IMG/VR virus record: IMGVR_UViG_3300008113_000556
Span: 1 to 24,725 of that record
Length of the DNA: 24,725 nt
Source: a virus
Strand: one strand, 5' to 3'
The position numbers were made by a program, and so were the translations under genes. The notes under the pieces are model-generated. The model did no database searches. It was given only the letters and a program-made list of their open reading frames with translations, and was not told the DNA's origin. Of this stretch, positions 1,366 to 24,725 are shown piece after piece. Positions within the stretch are counted from its first letter, which is position 1. Each line of letters opens with the position of its first letter.

Positions 1366-1643
1366 TACTAAAAAGAATAAAAGATTTTACCTTAAAAGAG
1401 AATCTCAGCTATAGCGGTGAAGATGTAACAAAAATGCCCGTTATAGGTAGAGTAATAACCAAACCTATAGGTCCTTTTGAAGAAGCAGAATATGAAGTGG
1501 TCGAAATAATAGAAGATACTAACGGTAGGGATATTTACGTATGTAATAAATGGTATAAAGAATACAAAAGAATACCACAGCTTATACATTCAGAACTTGT
1601 CAAAGAATATATTCCGGTAGCTAAATTCGGAAACTTTTATTAA
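1362..1643 (+). CDS. Small hypothetical protein with a capsid-targeting-like N-terminus
   Basis: A 93-residue protein whose ATG overlaps the transglycosylase stop by four bases, indicating translational coupling. Its first residues, MILKRIKDFTLKE, resemble the neighbour's (both contain L/I-K-D-F followed by L-x-E), with L11-K12-E13 as a possible prohead-protease site. After this the two proteins do not resemble each other. The remaining 80 residues look like a small beta-rich domain (EYEVVEII, DIYVCNKWYKEY, and a YIPVAKFG tail). I do not recognise a function. Coupling to the transglycosylase and the shared leader peptide suggest a co-packaged partner; that is inference. Confidence 0.65.
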   Translation: MILKRIKDFTLKENLSYSGEDVTKMPVIGRVITKPIGPFEEAEYEVVEIIEDTNGRDIYVCNKWYKEYKRIPQLIHSELVKEYIPVAKFGNFY

Positions 1644-1663
1644 TAAAGTTATATAACAATAGA

Positions 1664-1735
1664 ACTAGAGGTTTCTAGTCACTTCCCGGTCAACAAACCG
1701 TAGAGCTTTCAGTAATGGACGCAAAGGAAGGGGCC
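1664..1735 (+). ncRNA. Candidate structured RNA / 5' leader element
   Basis: The 108-base gap between genes is much less AT-rich than other gaps here and holds nested stems. A perfect 6-bp hairpin lies at 1664-1679 (ACTAGA, loop GGTT, TCTAGT). A 5-bp helix CTTCC (1682-1686) pairs with GGAAG (1726-1730) and encloses a 4-bp hairpin at 1687-1700 (CGGT, loop CAACAA, ACCG). The strings CAAACC (1694-1699) and GGACGCAAAG (1717-1726) also occur, in order, in the core of c-di-GMP-I (GEMM) riboswitches. The second GEMM domain and the usual tetraloop hairpin are missing, so I do not call it a riboswitch. It ends 16 bases before the start codon of the next gene. Confidence 0.35.
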
Positions 1736-1751
1736 AAATAAAATAATCTTT

Positions 1752-2560
1752 ATGTATTATTCAACGCCAAGCGTGAATGTGGGAGGTTGTACCGCACACA
1801 TCACAAGAAACAGAAATAGATCTAAGATCTATGGGGATTCCATCTACCTTAAAGACGGAGAAAATTTCGAGATTAATTATTCAATCCCACAACAGCAAGG
1901 GTCCTTGCGAAAATCAATCTAAACGGTAAGAGTATTTCTGAATCTGGTATCGTATTAAGACCAGGAGAAAGAATTTATCTGGAAAGATTTATCGACACAA
2001 ACAATAAGTTTCTTTTTGAGACTTATGAAGTTGATAAATCCAACGAGGCTCTTAACGCTATAATTGATAATGGTATGTTAGAGGTTTCTTTCTATAAAGA
2101 ATCTTTATCTTTAACCAATTATACAGGAAGCAGTTACTATAACGGACCAGCTTACAATCCAACAATTACCATCGGCGGATCTACTGGAATTTATTACGGG
2201 GGTCATACTTCTGATGTTTTTGGGTCTTACTGTTCTGATACTAACTTTTCTTTAGGTGGATCCACCATAACCAATCTATTTACTACTACTAGCATGACTA
2301 ATGATTCAATAAAAGGATCCAATGCTAGTAATAGTTTAGAAACGGGAAGAGTCGAAATGGGAGAATCAAGTAATCAAGAATTTAAAAGCGTGTCTGCAAA
2401 CTTTATGTCAATAGCAGAAACAACTATTAAATACAGAATACTTCCAGAATCACAAAAACCTTTAGAGTCAGCTTCTCTCAGAAACTATTGCACTGACTGT
2501 GGCACTAGGATGAAAAAACAATCTTGGAAGTTTTGTCCTAACTGTGGTACTAAAATCTAA
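1752..2560 (+). pseudogene. Zinc-ribbon phage protein split by a one-base frameshift
   Basis: ATG 1752 opens a frame (MYYSTPSVNVGGCT...) that stops at 1920-1922. The next frame continues seamlessly (VLAKINLNGKSISESG...) from about 1901 to the stop at 2560, and its first ATG (2075) lies inside this continuous sequence. Restoring one base near 1896-1900, for example an A giving CAA AGG GTC, joins both parts into about 269 residues. The joined protein has a beta-rich N-terminal domain, a Gly/Ser/Tyr/Thr-rich middle, and a C-terminal zinc ribbon with two CxxC pairs (CTDC, CPNC). No slippery heptamer is visible, so a sequencing deletion or a real broken gene is more likely than programmed shifting. 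Function unknown. The late-gene style and low-complexity middle suggest a virion-associated protein. Confidence 0.65.
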
Positions 2561-2575
2561 ACCATACTACACAAA

Positions 2576-2606
2576 AAACCCAGGAGAGATCCTGGGTTTG
2601 TAGTTT
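2576..2606. terminator. Bidirectional hairpin terminator between convergent genes
   Basis: A perfect 10-bp stem (AAACCCAGGA, loop GAGA, TCCTGGGTTT) is followed by a T-rich stretch (TAGTTTTTA) on the plus strand and preceded by an A-run that serves the minus strand. It lies exactly between the plus-strand zinc-ribbon gene and the minus-strand gene that ends at 2607. Confidence 0.88.
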
Positions 2607-3410
2607 TTATAGATATTGATCCCAGTTTTGAGCAGTCTCCGCTTGTGAGATCTCTATATCAGTATAAGGTCTAATATTATTTACTGGTGTTCCTTGGTAA
2701 GCCATATAGGCGTCTTTTGGAACTGGTATTTGATATTGTGGTGAAATGTTTGCTGTTCCAGAATTACCAGCAACTACTGGTGTAGTTGATATTGCTGGTC
2801 TATCTTTTGGACCAAACATCCAATCATATGATTTTTTTGCAAATTTTGCTTCTTGTGTGACACCTCTTAAAGCTTTTATTCCTGCTGGATTAGATGCAAG
2901 TTTTGTTAATTTAGCTCCTCCCTTCAGTACGAAATTTTTAAGTGAAGTTAGTATCTTACCAATAAAAGGAGTAATACCTGAAAATTTAGTTAAAAATTTA
3001 GAACTTTTTATAAATCCAACTATCTTAGGAAAAAATTTAGCCACCGCATTTACAAGTGGTTTTAGAATAGATGATCCTAGTGCTTTTCCTTTTCCTAAAG
3101 CCTTTACTAGTAGACTTCCGCCTGCTCCTATATATTGTCCAAAAAGAGGTATGAGTCCAATTGCACAAAGTCCTGCAAGTAAGTATTGCCCTTGCTTAGC
3201 ATAGGAAACTAAATTTATTCCTTCTGCAACAGATCCTACACCAGGGATAAGAGCTGCAAAATCTAGAACCGTATTATACCAAGCTTCCATCAGTGGGCTA
3301 TCATCATCTAAAGAAAGATAATCTAGAGATTCATTAATTTGATCCTGTGTAAAAAATTTAAGAGAACGTGTTTCGAACAAATAGTCCTCCATAGAAAGGA
3401 TGTTATCCAT
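2607..3410 (-). CDS. Hydrophobic Gly/Ala/Lys-rich protein, candidate injected cargo
   Basis: A 267-residue minus-strand protein. The N-terminus MDNILSMEDYLFE fits the capsid-targeting pattern seen in three other proteins here (L11-F12-E13). Residues about 46-100 contain two LIP motifs about 30 residues apart (ALIPGVGSVAEG and GLIPLFGQY), separated by a hydrophobic stretch. This arrangement recalls the pre-toxin regions of bacterial polymorphic toxins. Residues 100-200 are Lys/Gly/Phe-rich and amphipathic (AVAKFFPKIVGFI, LKNFVLKGGAKL), compatible with membrane insertion. The C-terminal 60 residues are Pro/Thr/Gln-rich. No catalytic motif is visible. A membrane-active protein delivered with DNA is an inference. 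A late-type promoter box lies just upstream on its strand, and a terminator follows. Confidence 0.75.
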   Translation of the reverse strand: MDNILSMEDYLFETRSLKFFTQDQINESLDYLSLDDDSPLMEAWYNTVLDFAALIPGVGSVAEGINLVSYAKQGQYLLAGLCAIGLIPLFGQYIGAGGSLLVKALGKGKALGSSILKPLVNAVAKFFPKIVGFIKSSKFLTKFSGITPFIGKILTSLKNFVLKGGAKLTKLASNPAGIKALRGVTQEAKFAKKSYDWMFGPKDRPAISTTPVVAGNSGTANISPQYQIPVPKDAYMAYQGTPVNNIRPYTDIEISQAETAQNWDQYL

Positions 3411-4776: not shown

Positions 4777-6012
4777 ATGGCTAAGAAAGAATTTTCGTTT
4801 GCGGAATTGGATAAACAACTATCTAAGATTGATGGATTTGAAATGGGATCAATACTAGAGAATAATGAATTCTCTGAGGTTACTGATTGGATCCCTACTG
4901 GTAACTATTTATTAAATGCTCAGCTTTCTGGGACATTGTTCGGGGGAATTGCTAACAATAGATCAATGGGAATCGCAGGAGACCCACAAACAGGTAAGTC
5001 TTTTCTTTGTATGAATATTGTAAGAGAAGCGCAGAGAAAAGATTATAACGTAATCTATTGCGATACTGAAGGCGCTATTGATAAAACAGGAGCAAAAAAA
5101 TTCGGTATCGACACAAATAAAGTTAGATATCAACCAATAAAGACTATTTCGGACTTTAAAGTATTTGTTGCTAATTTAGTTGATAAAGTTAAAGCATATA
5201 GAAAAGATGGGGCAGATCCTAAAATTGCTCTTGTTTTAGATTCATTAGGAATGCTATCAACAGATAAAGAAACTGGAGACGCATTAAAAGGTAAAAGCGC
5301 AATGGATATGGGGATTAGGTCTAAGGAGCTAAGATCATTATTTAGGGTTATCACTTTAGATCTTACTGCAGTTAAAATTCCTTTAATCTGTACAAATCAC
5401 ACAACAACAGGTAACATTGGTGGTTTTATGCCTACGAAAGAAGCAGCTGGGGGTGACGGTCCAATATTCTCTATGAGTAATGTGATTATGTTATCTAAAG
5501 CACAACTTAAAGAAGGAGACACTAAAACAGGTATTGTCGTTACATCTACTCCCAAAAAAGCTAGATTCACTAGACCATATGCTGTTAAGTTCCACATATC
5601 CTTTATGAATGGTATGAATCCATATGTAGGATTACAAGATTTTGTTTCCTGGGAAAATTGCGGAATACAAAGAGGTAAATTAGAGGTTGATAAAAAAACT
5701 GGGGAGATGGAATTTATCCCCAATGAGTCTTCTCCTAGATGGGCAGTTAGACATTTAGGAAAAACAGTTCCTTCAACTCAAATATTTACTCCTGATGTAT
5801 TTACTGAGGATGTTCTTAGACAATTGGACGAAAATGTTATACAGCCACACTTTAAATTACCTGATTTATTCGATGAATCTGAGCTTGAAGGTTTGATAAA
5901 CGGTGATACGGAAGAGCAAGAAGTAACTGAGTCCAATGGAGAAGAATATATTTGGTTAGAGACGGAAGACCTGACGGTGAATTTTCGGACCAAACTTTTA
6001 ATTCATTTTTAA
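4777..6012 (+). CDS. uvsX: UvsX-like RecA-family recombinase
   Basis: A 411-residue strand-exchange protein of recombination-dependent replication. Seen: Walker A GDPQTGKS (68-75), CDTEG with the likely catalytic Glu99, Walker B IALVLDS (Asp155), and the NH-T-T-T-G stretch followed by GG-F-M-P-T-K-E-A-A-GG, which corresponds to DNA-binding loop 2. The length is close to T4 UvsX (391). The acidic tail fits UvsX, but the last 18 residues in this frame look non-coding, while the -1 frame continues convincingly (see 5931-6143). The true protein is therefore probably about 60 residues longer. The leader TTTAAAAT has no Shine-Dalgarno. It heads the uvsX-41-47-46 cluster. Confidence 0.93.
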   Translation: MAKKEFSFAELDKQLSKIDGFEMGSILENNEFSEVTDWIPTGNYLLNAQLSGTLFGGIANNRSMGIAGDPQTGKSFLCMNIVREAQRKDYNVIYCDTEGAIDKTGAKKFGIDTNKVRYQPIKTISDFKVFVANLVDKVKAYRKDGADPKIALVLDSLGMLSTDKETGDALKGKSAMDMGIRSKELRSLFRVITLDLTAVKIPLICTNHTTTGNIGGFMPTKEAAGGDGPIFSMSNVIMLSKAQLKEGDTKTGIVVTSTPKKARFTRPYAVKFHISFMNGMNPYVGLQDFVSWENCGIQRGKLEVDKKTGEMEFIPNESSPRWAVRHLGKTVPSTQIFTPDVFTEDVLRQLDENVIQPHFKLPDLFDESELEGLINGDTEEQEVTESNGEEYIWLETEDLTVNFRTKLLIHF

Positions 6013-6143
6013 ATCCAGATTGGAAGAAAACTAATCACGGAAAATTAATAAAAGAGTTAATAGACACTGGAATTTTTGAAAAGACTGAGAAAAGTATAGG
6101 AAGTAAAAATTGGTTTAAAATAAAGGACAATCCACATTATTAA
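5931..6143 (+). CDS. Probable C-terminal part of UvsX in the -1 frame
   Basis: From a TGA at 5928-5930 this frame is open to TAA 6143, with strongly coding-like content (IYLVRDGRPDGEFSD..., NPDWKKTNHGKLIKELID, SIGSKNWFKIK). There is no ATG; only a TTG at 5952 could start it. Adding one A to the AA at 5945-5946 would give ...GEE-IYLVRDG..., joining it in frame to UvsX. No -1 slippery heptamer is visible. Readings, in order of preference: UvsX C-terminal domain with a one-base deletion in the sequence; a genuine split; or a separate TTG-started small gene. Gp41 begins three bases after the stop. Confidence 0.55.
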   Translation, partial: VQWRRIYLVRDGRPDGEFSDQTFNSFLNPDWKKTNHGKLIKELIDTGIFEKTEKSIGSKNWFKIKDNPHY

Positions 6144-17782: not shown

Positions 17783-17790
17783 TATAAATA
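17783..17790 (+). promoter_or_regulatory. T4-type late promoter upstream of gp18
   Basis: TATAAATA is an exact match to the T4 late -10 consensus and lies in the only sizeable gap of the packaging/tail run. ATG 17801 follows after ten A-rich bases. By T4 spacing the leader would be only about five bases. Strong independent expression of the abundant sheath protein fits. Confidence 0.7.
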
Positions 17791-21247: not shown

Positions 21248-21820
21248 ATGGCGGGATTACCACATTATACGAGTTCTAAGGCTTCGGTTAATAAGTACGA
21301 ACCTATTTTCCTCAACCAGTTTGAGGTTACTATTACTCCACCTACTGCTATCCCTGTGCAAGCAGGGAACCCAGGTGCTGCTAATATATTATTGGAACAA
21401 GTAACTAGAGTATCTGGTCTACAAGTTGATCAAAATGCTGGGGAGATTACTCAACAGTATAAGTTCGCTAAAAGATACTACTCTGGTGCTGCTCCACAAA
21501 GAACAGGTTTAGATGTTGACATAGAATTTGAAATAAACCTTAACGAGAACAATTCGATGTATGTTTTTAAAACATTACGTCAGTGGTCAGATTTAATTTA
21601 CAATCCTCTTACTGGAGCGATGGGGCTTAAAAAAGATTACACAGGAAACATTCTTATTAACGTTTTCAATAAGCAGGGCGATATTTTTAGAAAGATAAAT
21701 CTAAGAGATTGCTTTCCTATGACACCAATCCCAGAAATGGCATTAAATTATACCCAGACTTCAATATACAAATTGAACCTAACTTGGGCAGTTGATTATT
21801 TCGACGACATATTTATATAA
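21248..21820 (+). CDS. 19: Tail tube protein (T4 gp19 type), copy 1
   Basis: A 190-residue protein beginning MAGLPHYTSSKAS, with NQFEVTITPP, a central VSGLQVD and the characteristic late-half pattern FKTLRQWSDLIYNPLTG, GNILINVFNKQGDIFRKI, then DCFPMTPIPEMALNY and a closing LNLTWAVDYFDDIFI strand. This is the gp19/VgrG-like tube fold that stacks as hexamers inside the sheath. T4 gp19 has 163 residues. It follows gp18, as in T4. The downstream copy is clearly paralogous, with identical or near-identical residues over long segments. Confidence 0.88.
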   Translation: MAGLPHYTSSKASVNKYEPIFLNQFEVTITPPTAIPVQAGNPGAANILLEQVTRVSGLQVDQNAGEITQQYKFAKRYYSGAAPQRTGLDVDIEFEINLNENNSMYVFKTLRQWSDLIYNPLTGAMGLKKDYTGNILINVFNKQGDIFRKINLRDCFPMTPIPEMALNYTQTSIYKLNLTWAVDYFDDIFI

Positions 21821-21830
21821 AAAATAGAAA

Positions 21831-22409
21831 ATGGCAGGATTACCACATTTTACAGCATCAAAGGCAGCAGTACAATTATACGAACCGGTATATCTTAACC
21901 AGTTTGAAGTTATTATACAGCCACCAGCTGGGGTTGCTTTAGAGCAAGGTAACGGAGGAAGAACGCTCTTAGTAGAGAACGTGCTTTCCGTTTCAGGTTT
22001 ATCAGTAGATAAAAACCCAGGTATAGCGGAGCAAAGATATAAATTTGCTAGAAGAAGATATGCTGCTGGTGCAGTTGATGACACTGGTATTAAGGTAAGA
22101 ATTGAATTTGAAACAAACCTTAATGATAACAACAGTAACTACGTATTTAAAGCATTAAGACAATGGTCAGATTTAATTTACAATCCATTAACTGGTGCCA
22201 CTGGTATTAAATCAACTTATGCAGGAGGAACATACATACTTGTCTCTATCTTTAATAAGCAGGGAGACGTATTTAGAAGAATTAAGTTAGTAAATTGTTT
22301 CCCAGTGGATCAGATCAAGGCATTAGACCTTGATTATACCAACGGTACTACTCCTTATAAAATACCTTTATCTTTTAGAGCGGACTACTTCGAAGACGTT
22401 TTTAACTAA
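21831..22409 (+). CDS. 19: Tail tube protein (T4 gp19 type), copy 2
   Basis: A 192-residue paralogue ten bases downstream of copy 1. Shared landmarks: MAGLPH-[YF]-T, LNQFEV, ALRQWSDLIYNPLTGA, FNKQGDVFRRI, NCFPVDQI and ADYFEDVF. Differences concentrate in the first third and the GRTLLVEN / AGAVDDTG loops, so subunit contacts or lumen residues may differ. Either the two mix in one tube, or one copy makes a special segment such as the baseplate-proximal or terminal ring. The leader AAAATAGAAA follows a TATATAAAAAAT stretch overlapping the stop of copy 1, which may be an extra promoter. Confidence 0.87.
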   Translation: MAGLPHFTASKAAVQLYEPVYLNQFEVIIQPPAGVALEQGNGGRTLLVENVLSVSGLSVDKNPGIAEQRYKFARRRYAAGAVDDTGIKVRIEFETNLNDNNSNYVFKALRQWSDLIYNPLTGATGIKSTYAGGTYILVSIFNKQGDVFRRIKLVNCFPVDQIKALDLDYTNGTTPYKIPLSFRADYFEDVFN

Positions 22410-22748: not shown

Positions 22749-23792
22749 ATGGCAGAAAATCCAGATGATGAACTATTAAGACAGCTACAACAAAGAGAGT
22801 CAGCTTCTAAATTTGAGTATGATAATGATCCAGATGTTAATAATTATCAAATACCATCATGGATCGCTAACGAAGCAAATCAACCCAATCCTACACAGGG
22901 TGCTGGAGCTCCTCAGCAATCCAATAATTTAGGAAAGGTTAACGTTTCTAGAACACCACTAGGAATGGAAAACGAATGGAAAAATATACCGGTTGAGAAT
23001 TTACCTTCTAAAGGATTTGGATATCCCCCAGGATTTGAAATTGCTATAAAAGCAGCAGAAGTTAGAGAAATAAGACAGTTTTCAACAGTTGATGAGAATG
23101 ATAGGATAGATCTTGACGACAAACTAAATTCTATTCTTTCTAAGTGTATGAAGATAAGATGGAACGGAGGATTCTTAGAATCATTTGATCTTTGGTATGA
23201 GGATAGGTTTTATATTATAATGTCAATTAGGGACGTTACCTTTATACGAGGGGAGAATAAAATATTATTACCCGTAACAAAAAATTGCACTAAAACGGAA
23301 TGCAACGTTCCGGATATGATAGAACTTAGATCCAATCTACTAGATAGTTTTATCGTGGATCCTGAGATTCTTAAAAGATATAGCACAGAATCATATTCAT
23401 TTAAATTCATACCTAAAGACGGTACATCTTCACTAGATCTTTATATACCAACTGTCGGGGTTACTACTATTTGTAGAAAAATCATAGCAGATAAAAGAAG
23501 AAAGGGTAAAAAATTCGACGAGAGTTTTGCTAAAGTTGCAACTTTTATAATTCCTGATTGGCGAGGATTAGATGAAGCCTTATACGATCAGTATGAGCGA
23601 GCTTCCTTAGACTGGACTCCAGTTCAATTTTCTATAGCAGATCAAGTAACGGAGAAGATAAACTTTGCAACAAAATCTAGAATTTATACTAAATGTGAGA
23701 GCTGTGAGGGGGAGGTCACAGCTGATATATCATTTCCCGGAGGGTATAGATCTCTTTTCGTTATTTCAGATATCTTTAGCCAATTACTTTGA
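22749..23792 (+). CDS. 26: gp26-like baseplate hub / tail assembly protein (possible chaperone)
   Basis: A 347-residue protein. Residues 1-80 are Gln/Pro/Asn-rich and probably disordered. The T4_baseplate (gp26) family pattern follows: NLPSKGFGYPPGFEIAIKAA (84-103), EVREIRQFSTVDE, DKLNSILSKCMKIRW, and RFYIIMSIRDVTF. A C-terminal zinc-finger-like CESC (316-319) precedes ISFPGGYRSLF. T4 gp26 has 208 residues. The gene ends in CTT TGA (23787-23792), and an in-phase +1 frame continues for 60 codons without a credible start, so part of the product may be extended by +1 frameshifting. Position between tail tube and a possible tape-measure gene matches tail-assembly-chaperone genes of other phages. 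Confidence 0.75.
   Translation: MAENPDDELLRQLQQRESASKFEYDNDPDVNNYQIPSWIANEANQPNPTQGAGAPQQSNNLGKVNVSRTPLGMENEWKNIPVENLPSKGFGYPPGFEIAIKAAEVREIRQFSTVDENDRIDLDDKLNSILSKCMKIRWNGGFLESFDLWYEDRFYIIMSIRDVTFIRGENKILLPVTKNCTKTECNVPDMIELRSNLLDSFIVDPEILKRYSTESYSFKFIPKDGTSSLDLYIPTVGVTTICRKIIADKRRKGKKFDESFAKVATFIIPDWRGLDEALYDQYERASLDWTPVQFSIADQVTEKINFATKSRIYTKCESCEGEVTADISFPGGYRSLFVISDIFSQLL
23787..23792 (+). promoter_or_regulatory. Candidate +1 programmed frameshift site CTT TGA
   Basis: The gp26-like frame ends with the codons CTT TGA. This is the shift site of the bacterial prfB gene, where tRNA-Leu slips +1 at a weak UGA. A +1 shift here reads CTT-GAT-ATT-AAG and enters the frame that ends at 23970. 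There is no SD-like stimulator three bases upstream as in prfB of E. coli. An alternative is one extra T in the TTT run. Confidence 0.5.
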
Positions 23793-23970
23793 TATTAAGT
23801 TTAGACTTTGGGATGAATTCAAATTATCAATAGATGCTTTAGAATCAATGCCCTTTTATGAATATCAATTGTTTATAGATAAGCTTAATGAAAAAATAGA
23901 AAGAGAAAACAAAAGAGTAGAACAAGGAGACATGGTAGAAGCATTCTCATTTAAAAACCCAAAAAGATAG
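23791..23970 (+). CDS. +1-frame extension of gp26-like protein (GT-like chaperone segment)
   Basis: 60 codons from 23791, DIKFRLWDEFKLSIDALESM..., ending KNPKR before TAG. The frame is open back to 23662 but the only non-ATG start (TTG 23665) lies deep in gp26, and those upstream residues look like a shadow; the single later ATG (23848) would remove a third of the segment. The content is helical and coding-like: SIDALESMPFYEYQLFIDKLNEKIERENKR resembles the second helical modules of tail-assembly chaperones. I infer it is made as a gp26 fusion by +1 frameshifting, or by coupled reinitiation at ATT 23794. The terminator stem overlaps its last codons. Confidence 0.55.
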   Translation, partial: DIKFRLWDEFKLSIDALESMPFYEYQLFIDKLNEKIERENKRVEQGDMVEAFSFKNPKR

Positions 23971-23985
23971 CTTTTTTGGGTTTTT
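23953..23985 (+). terminator. Rho-independent terminator overlapping the preceding stop codon
   Basis: A 13-bp stem AAAAACCCAAAAA (23953-23965) pairs with TTTTTGGGTTTTT (23973-23985); loop GATAGCT contains the TAG stop. The 5' arm encodes the last residues of the upstream frame. A late promoter follows six bases later, separating the gp26 unit from the next gene. Confidence 0.75.
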
Positions 23986-23990
23986 AGGTA

Positions 23991-23998
23991 TATAAATA
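23991..23998 (+). promoter_or_regulatory. T4-type late promoter upstream of the 24009 gene
   Basis: TATAAATA is an exact late-consensus match directly after a terminator and ten bases before the TTG start at 24009, the same spacing as at gp18. Confidence 0.7.
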
Positions 23999-24008
23999 AA
24001 AAAATATT

Positions 24009-24725
24009 TTGGCAGGAGAAACAGGCACAACAGGATCGGGATTCCCAGTTTTTAAATCAGAGGGAGGAGCATTTGATAGGGCTAAGCTACAAAGCACTAT
24101 AAGAGCTGGTGCAGGATCAACAATATCTAAAGAAACATTTGCGGCTATGGAAGCTGCTGATAGTGTTTCATCAGCAGCAAAAACATTCTATGACGACATT
24201 TTTGATAAAACACTAAAAGAATTAGACCCTGCTCTGGATCCTAATTCTATATTTTATAAGAAAGCCTACGACGACAGCGGTTCAGATAGGGGTGAAATAA
24301 GTCGTAAAATAGATAAAGGTGAGGCGGTCGACGGGAAAGAAATTTTCGAAATGGCTAAAGGATCAGCCTCAAATAAGATAGAGAATGTAAAGGTTTTAAA
24401 AACAGGAAAACCCACGGAGATAATAGAAAATATAGGGTATAGAGATATAGAAAAATTTGAAGCCTTCGAAGAAATTAAAAACGATTTCAATAAGAAAGTA
24501 ACAGATGATAAGTTTAAGTTTGAACCTTTAGCAGATAAATTTTTAGATATCCTTTCCTATTTTAATAGCAAAACTCCTCTAGATGCTAGAACAGCAGGAT
24601 TACTATACACTCCAGAAAATAATGCTATAATTTCAGCTATTTCTAAGATATTAGAAGCTAAAGGATTTAATAGTGAAGCAGTTTTAAACATGTCCAAAAG
24701 ATATGACGAAAATATAAACAAACTC
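24009..24725 (+). CDS. Long late protein, 3' end beyond window; tape-measure candidate
   Basis: A frame open from TTG 24009 to the window edge (239 codons, no stop). An in-frame stop lies just upstream (23997-23999) and there is no early ATG; the first, at 24147, would discard 46 coding-like residues. TTG GCA GGA corresponds to the ATG GCA GGA start of both gp19 genes (MAG...), and a late promoter lies at the same distance as for gp18, which makes TTG the likely start. The N-terminus is Gly/Thr/Ser-rich (AGETGTTGSGFPVFKSEGGA), then Ala-rich helical sequence (ETFAAMEAADSVSSAAKTF) and charged helices, with no cysteines seen. Position after the gp26 pair suggests tape measure or baseplate hub. 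Unproven because truncated. Confidence 0.65.
   Translation, partial: MAGETGTTGSGFPVFKSEGGAFDRAKLQSTIRAGAGSTISKETFAAMEAADSVSSAAKTFYDDIFDKTLKELDPALDPNSIFYKKAYDDSGSDRGEISRKIDKGEAVDGKEIFEMAKGSASNKIENVKVLKTGKPTEIIENIGYRDIEKFEAFEEIKNDFNKKVTDDKFKFEPLADKFLDILSYFNSKTPLDARTAGLLYTPENNAIISAISKILEAKGFNSEAVLNMSKRYDENINKL

Follow-up and report, generated by a model that had tools for sequence, protein, structure and literature searches.

A single gene in the tail region of this uncultured virus very probably directs the synthesis of two tail assembly chaperones, the longer one reached through a net +1 frameshift at CTT TTC. The window analysed here is the whole 24,725-base viral record IMGVR_UViG_3300008113_000556. 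According to the ORF listing of the window, the +1 frame relative to the upstream gene (ORF1) is open from 23662 to a TAG at 23968–23970, and the window has no ATG in that frame upstream of 23850. The extension that we call ORF2 overlaps ORF1 by about 128 nt; this overlap had escaped the preliminary description and is itself conserved. The features of the locus are as follows.

22749–23792, plus strand: ORF1, 347 aa, a gp26-like short tail assembly chaperone (TAC-N), predicted from the ORF, its relatives, its family link, and its fold.
23700–23723, plus strand: RNA hairpin AGCTGTGA-GGGGGAGG-TCACAGCT with a Shine-Dalgarno-like loop, a candidate 5' stimulator, recognized by near-zero synonymous change, fold z, and covariation.
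23733–23738, plus strand: invariant TTT CCC, lying downstream of the hairpin and ahead of the shift site, from the close-clade and second-clade alignments.
23754–23759, plus strand: predicted frameshift site CTT TTC (net +1 through a CUU_U slip; alternatively −2, with re-pairing from UUC to UUU), from the switch in selected frame.
23758–23970, plus strand: +1-frame extension of 70 aa (SLFQISLANYF...NPKR, then TAG), from a phrog_634 match and the fusion alignment.
ORF1 residues 1–336 plus the 70-aa extension: predicted long form (TAC-NC) of 406 aa with a T4 gp51-like C-terminal module.
23787–23792, plus strand: CTT TGA, the ORF1 terminator and the slip site first proposed, not conserved as such.
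23952–23986, plus strand: terminator-like hairpin around the ORF2 stop (fold z −5.2; inverted match).
23991–23998, plus strand: TATAAATA, found by motif search before the next gene, which we take to be a T4-type late promoter motif.

In the mechanism that we propose, most ribosomes would translate ORF1 to its TGA and make the short form, while a fraction would slip at CTT TTC, in the simplest version by movement of the peptidyl-tRNA-Leu from CUU to UUU. These ribosomes would then read 70 codons in the +1 frame to complete the long form, with a predicted tryptic junction peptide of SLSLFQISLANYFDIK. The shared part would be a body of the T4 gp26/gp51 type and the added part a gp51-type C-terminal module. 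If the pair works as gpG/gpGT does in lambda, the tape measure would be coated by the short form, and the long form, the scarcer of the two, would connect it to the tube subunits. We infer both that shifting takes place, at a ratio favoring the short form, and that the products act as chaperones in this phage. The evidence is comparative throughout. It upholds the preliminary proposal of a programmed net +1 shift in a gp26-like gene giving a short and long pair of the G/GT type, through both the relatives and the frame switch described below.

Profile matches place two tail-tube-like genes (21248–21820 and 21831–22409) and a sheath gene upstream of ORF1. The two adjacent tail-tube-type genes are paralogous, with both matching phrog_32623. 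The locus had initially been placed between tail-tube genes and a possible tape measure gene, and the profile matches bear out the first half of that placement. The next gene (24009–24725 in the window) has a TTG start and encodes about 570–650 aa across relatives; its product as read in one of them (L311, 566 aa, 1501–3201) is rich in Thr/Gly/Ser low-complexity sequence and unlike a typical tape measure protein. The putative late promoter motif that precedes this gene also occurs at 17783–17790, directly before the sheath gene (17801), and two further copies on the minus strand (21817 and 13092) lie inside genes. Elsewhere in the window, a RecA/UvsX-like ORF (4777–6143 region) stops at 6012, and an overlapping frame at 5952–6143 is coding-like, a possible frame break.

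The window's ORF1 had no direct Pfam match in profile searches. It does match phrog_36717, a family that includes PAU gp93 (E 6e-16), and ORF1 relatives score above the PF12322 cut-off of 24.5 (33.9 bits for PAU and 29.2 bits for L226). The +1-frame stretch matches phrog_634, the T4 gp51 type, with an E-value of 8.8e-7 (1.9e-5 for the fusion); together with the conservation of the frame and the missing upstream ATG, this bears out the early impression of a coding-like frame without a usable ATG. T4 gp26 and gp51, which a review of T4 lists as hub assembly chaperones (PMC3004832), form one family (PF12322, phrog_150), in which gp51 carries the C-terminal module phrog_634 and gp26 does not. When the fusion is aligned with them, T4 gp26 stops (GLKEFFELL) where the others shift, and gp51 runs on. 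These matches argue for placing ORF1 in the T4 gp26/gp51 family, with its +1 tail as the gp51-type C-terminal module.

Structure models were made for ORF1 and its core domain, and the fold link draws on weak VIA-align scores. Against the core-domain model, only one PDB chain reached a Z of at least 5: 2ob9, a tail assembly chaperone of HK97 (Z 5.4, a weak match, across 74 residues). The whole ORF1 model gave a Z of 3.2 against the same chain. Weak as it is, the match points toward a tail chaperone. A Foldseek search of the ORF1 model against the PDB returned nothing below an E-value of 1. Sequence searches of the PDB found no match to ORF1, and the profile of one alignment (A3) gave a single chance-level row (E 0.99, a ubiquitin variant).

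Searches recovered ORF1 from 58 viral contigs and ORF2 from 45, and the +1 relation is the same wherever both are readable. Every relative read has both, with their relative frame unchanged; about forty-five of these are distinct close haplotypes, and no relative shows the single uninterrupted frame that had been named as grounds for rejecting a programmed shift. A second clade, at about 25 per cent identity, adds 38 more 3'-end haplotypes with the same relative frame, and alignment-based searches added ORF1 relatives down to 41 per cent identity. The same layout is found in isolated phages and megaphages, including PAU (gp93/gp94), PTm1, MA9V-1, MaF61, LR756500, LR745206, and LR756501. Judged across these sequences, the arrangement is far from chance. 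In Lak phages the continuation likewise lies in the +1 frame, with in-frame stops that we take as recoded TAG. Two Lak homologues (L109 and L110, at ~3777) end in GAT TTT TAA with a +1 continuation, a pattern that a UUU_UAA slip together with recoded TAG may explain. Rhodothermus phage RM378 (L139, ~2040) reads TCC TTT TTT TGG at the homologous point, again with a +1 continuation, and a net +1 shift (UUU_U) is possible there.

We located the shift from the pattern of substitutions. Synonymous difference in ORF1 averages 0.39 among the 45 haplotypes but falls to about zero in two islands, codons 315–324 and 336–345, and CTT TTC is invariant in all 45. From TTT CCC to the TCT at 23751–23753, most variation is synonymous in frame 0 but harmful in +1: changes at 23744, 23747, and 23753 are silent in frame 0 and radical in +1 (G to D, T to I, and L to P, the last in nine of 23 ends). 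From 23760 on, changes mostly alter frame 0, and those at 23760, 23769, 23775, and 23778 are silent in +1. The site counts give a Fisher P of 0.047 from 30 distinct ends, with small counts. By these patterns, the selected frame in the window's clade switches from 0 to +1 between 23753 and 23760, at CTT TTC, and because it switches there we place the shift at this site, 33 nt before CTT TGA. The switch is less sharp in the second clade. Distant phages have CTT TTC, ATT TTC, or ATT TTT at this position. One subclade (L396–L401) has lost the CTT (TTA or CTA TTC) and kept AAA AGT two codons upstream; from its sequence it must use another site, perhaps AAA A, and the slip may have moved. We also considered the CCC at 23736 and rejected it as the place of the slip. 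Although the whole close clade keeps it, distant relatives carry CAA, CGA, CCT, or other codons there, and immediately downstream selection is not on the +1 frame.

Against a +1 reading of CTT TTC stands its A-site codon: +1 shifting usually involves a slow codon there, and UUC is not one. The ATT TTC of several distant relatives, which offers poor +1 re-pairing, counts against this reading as well. Among bacterial +1 slips, CUU_U is the one known best (PMC5009743). A −2 shift at the same place would lead into the same frame: the A-site tRNA-Phe would re-pair from UUC to UUU (and the P-site tRNA from CUU to CUC), adding one residue to the product. Its junction would read S-L-F-S-L-F-Q, against S-L-S-L-F-Q for +1, and its tryptic peptide would be SLFSLFQISLANYFDIK. 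Such shifts are known in phage Mu (PMC5009743), and NTT TTY, which provides a UUU two bases back for the A-site tRNA, is kept in nearly all relatives, including those with ATT TTC. Both tRNAs could re-pair in the TCT variants, but P-site pairing is broken in the TCC CTT TTC variants (C at 23753 in 14 of 30 distinct ends) and A-site pairing is broken in L396–L401. We regard the −2 shift as a serious but rather unlikely alternative to the net +1 slip.

An internal start would make ORF2 a separate overlapping gene, beginning at TTG 23665 or at GTG 23695 or 23704, perhaps with the GGGGAGG hairpin loop as its ribosome-binding site. Both the window and many relatives do have a TTG or GTG farther upstream in the +1 frame, and existing annotations treat PAU gp94 and cyanophage gp51 each as a small gene of its own. 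However, several relatives (L040, L100–L102, L215, L216, and L226) have a +1-frame stop between such codons and the shift site. In ten of 63 loci, the stretch from the last +1-frame stop to the shift site lacks ATG, GTG, and TTG alike. Two relatives (L100 and L101) lack all three throughout the remaining +1 ORF, which also removes the conserved downstream ATG that had been considered as a possible counter-explanation. Because of these stops and missing start codons, ORF2 can be reached only from ORF1. In addition, no start codon follows the Shine-Dalgarno-like loop, and upstream of 23756 selection is not on the +1 frame. We consider a separate gene very improbable.

A slip at CTT TGA (23787), as the preliminary description had proposed, has equally little in its favor beyond the presence in the window of CUU_UGA, the shift site of prfB. 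Aligning the homologous loci, as had been suggested, did reveal a conserved +1 frame with synonymous-biased change, but CTT TGA is not conserved, with relatives carrying CTT TAA, TTT TGA, or CTA TGA. The +1 frame is already selected about 30 nt upstream, frame 0 drifts from 23760 on while changes in +1 are silent, and the earlier +1 residues SLFQISL are part of the conserved module. This slip would predict a junction of ...FSQLLDIK, as opposed to SL(F)SLFQISLANYFDIK for CTT TTC. Finally, in a single metagenomic contig one might suspect an indel from sequencing or assembly, such as the one-base insertion first held to be the main alternative, or else a gene in decay, but the same frame break recurs in relatives (over 100 independent contigs as well as isolated phages), and a local indel is therefore excluded.

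The hairpin upstream of the shift site folds, with its flanks, at −13.6 kcal/mol (z −4.7 against shuffles). Among 21 distinct sequences, 95.9 per cent of pair cells are kept, with ten double-change cells compared to 3.4 expected; none of 500 shuffles scored as high, and versions slid along the alignment reached at most 65 per cent pairing. By inspection, the second clade and PAU have a hairpin in a neighboring register. A DNA search of the region against isolated phages matched in only one place, the hairpin-to-shift stretch at 23673–23771 of the window. No RNA structure 3' of the shift site rose above shuffles. The covariation argues that the hairpin is under selection, and it probably stimulates the shift; the TTT CCC downstream of it could pair with its loop. 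At about 30 nt from the shift site, the hairpin is too far upstream for a Shine-Dalgarno effect of the prfB type. One tentative model is a net +1 shift on a fast sense A-site codon, driven mainly by the 5' hairpin (with its Shine-Dalgarno-like loop and perhaps a pseudoknot with TTTCC) as it refolds behind the ribosome. To our knowledge, no 5' refolding-hairpin stimulator has been described for bacterial +1 (or −2) shifting.

Like the −1 system of lambda gpG/gpGT, the locus would pair a short chaperone with a less abundant, frameshifted long form, close to the tail tube genes. There is no detectable sequence relation between the two; the window's predicted shift is net +1 (or −2) and, unlike that of lambda, lies within a 0-frame end that is conserved and runs on for about 33 nt past the site. 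T4 gp26/gp51 (PF12322) appear to belong to the same family as ORF1, and the end of their short form and the start of the long-form module fall at the homologous point. T4, however, has two separate full-length genes, where the window appears to have one gene and a frameshift, and the end of T4 gp26 (TTC TTT GAG) contains no slippery run. In cyanophages, phiM12, Cr30, and phiW-14, the gp26/'gp51' pair adds the same module by a frameshift at the homologous point: in P-SSM2, Syn9, phiM12, Cr30, and phiW-14 the module lies in the −1 frame behind T TTT TTC/T, and T TTT TTC stands one codon before the stop in all 80 cyanophage-type loci fetched. The cyanophage type is thus a −1 shift at a classical heptamer directly before the stop, whereas the window's clade has a predicted net +1 shift, earlier, at CTT TTC and with a 5' hairpin. 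Annotations give three such modules as tiny genes in their own right, each with a start codon (NC_006883 7217–7390 and NC_008296 7248–7391, both 'gp51', and JQ362498 67403–67540, PAU gp94). The short '+1' genes of PAU and PTm1 and the cyanophage 'gp51' are probably mis-annotated fragments of the frameshifted product.

With prfB (RF2), which uses frameshifting for a different purpose, the window shares CUU_U as the probable slip. It has UUC at the mapped site where prfB has UGA in the A site, and the Shine-Dalgarno sequence that prfB carries 3 nt upstream of CUU is absent; the nearest purine run, GGAGGG, lies 9 nt upstream and is variable. Net access to the +1 frame is also found in the tail chaperones of HSTV-2 (+1, probable) and phage Mu (−2) (PMC5009743), which belong to other phage families than the window's phage.

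A 2016 review names T4 as an exception to the widely conserved tail-chaperone frameshift (PMC5009743). According to two papers that cite it (PMC10885494, PMC12846349), Vladimirov, Gautam, and Davidson (2022) identified tail chaperones of T4-like phages, some of which encode the short and the long form in separate genes and others of which carry poly-T −1 signals. As relayed there, the tail-chaperone identity of the T4 pair and the −1 sites in T4-like phages are already published. The searchable literature, which covers few subscription papers, yielded no description of the +1 form, of CTT TTC as its site, or of the hairpin. The initial remark that no such arrangement was familiar for T4-type gp26 holds for the +1 form in this literature but not for T4-like phages as a whole, where −1 versions and the split pair of T4 are reported by the citing papers.

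One protein family would thus reach its long chaperone by three routes: a −1 shift in cyanophages, a net +1 shift in the window's clade and several huge phages, and separate genes in T4. This places the two genes of T4 at the same junction, and transitions between the routes become testable. The covarying hairpin is a new candidate frameshift stimulator that can itself be tested and, if the hairpin-driven model is true, this type of stimulator has been kept across very diverse large phages.
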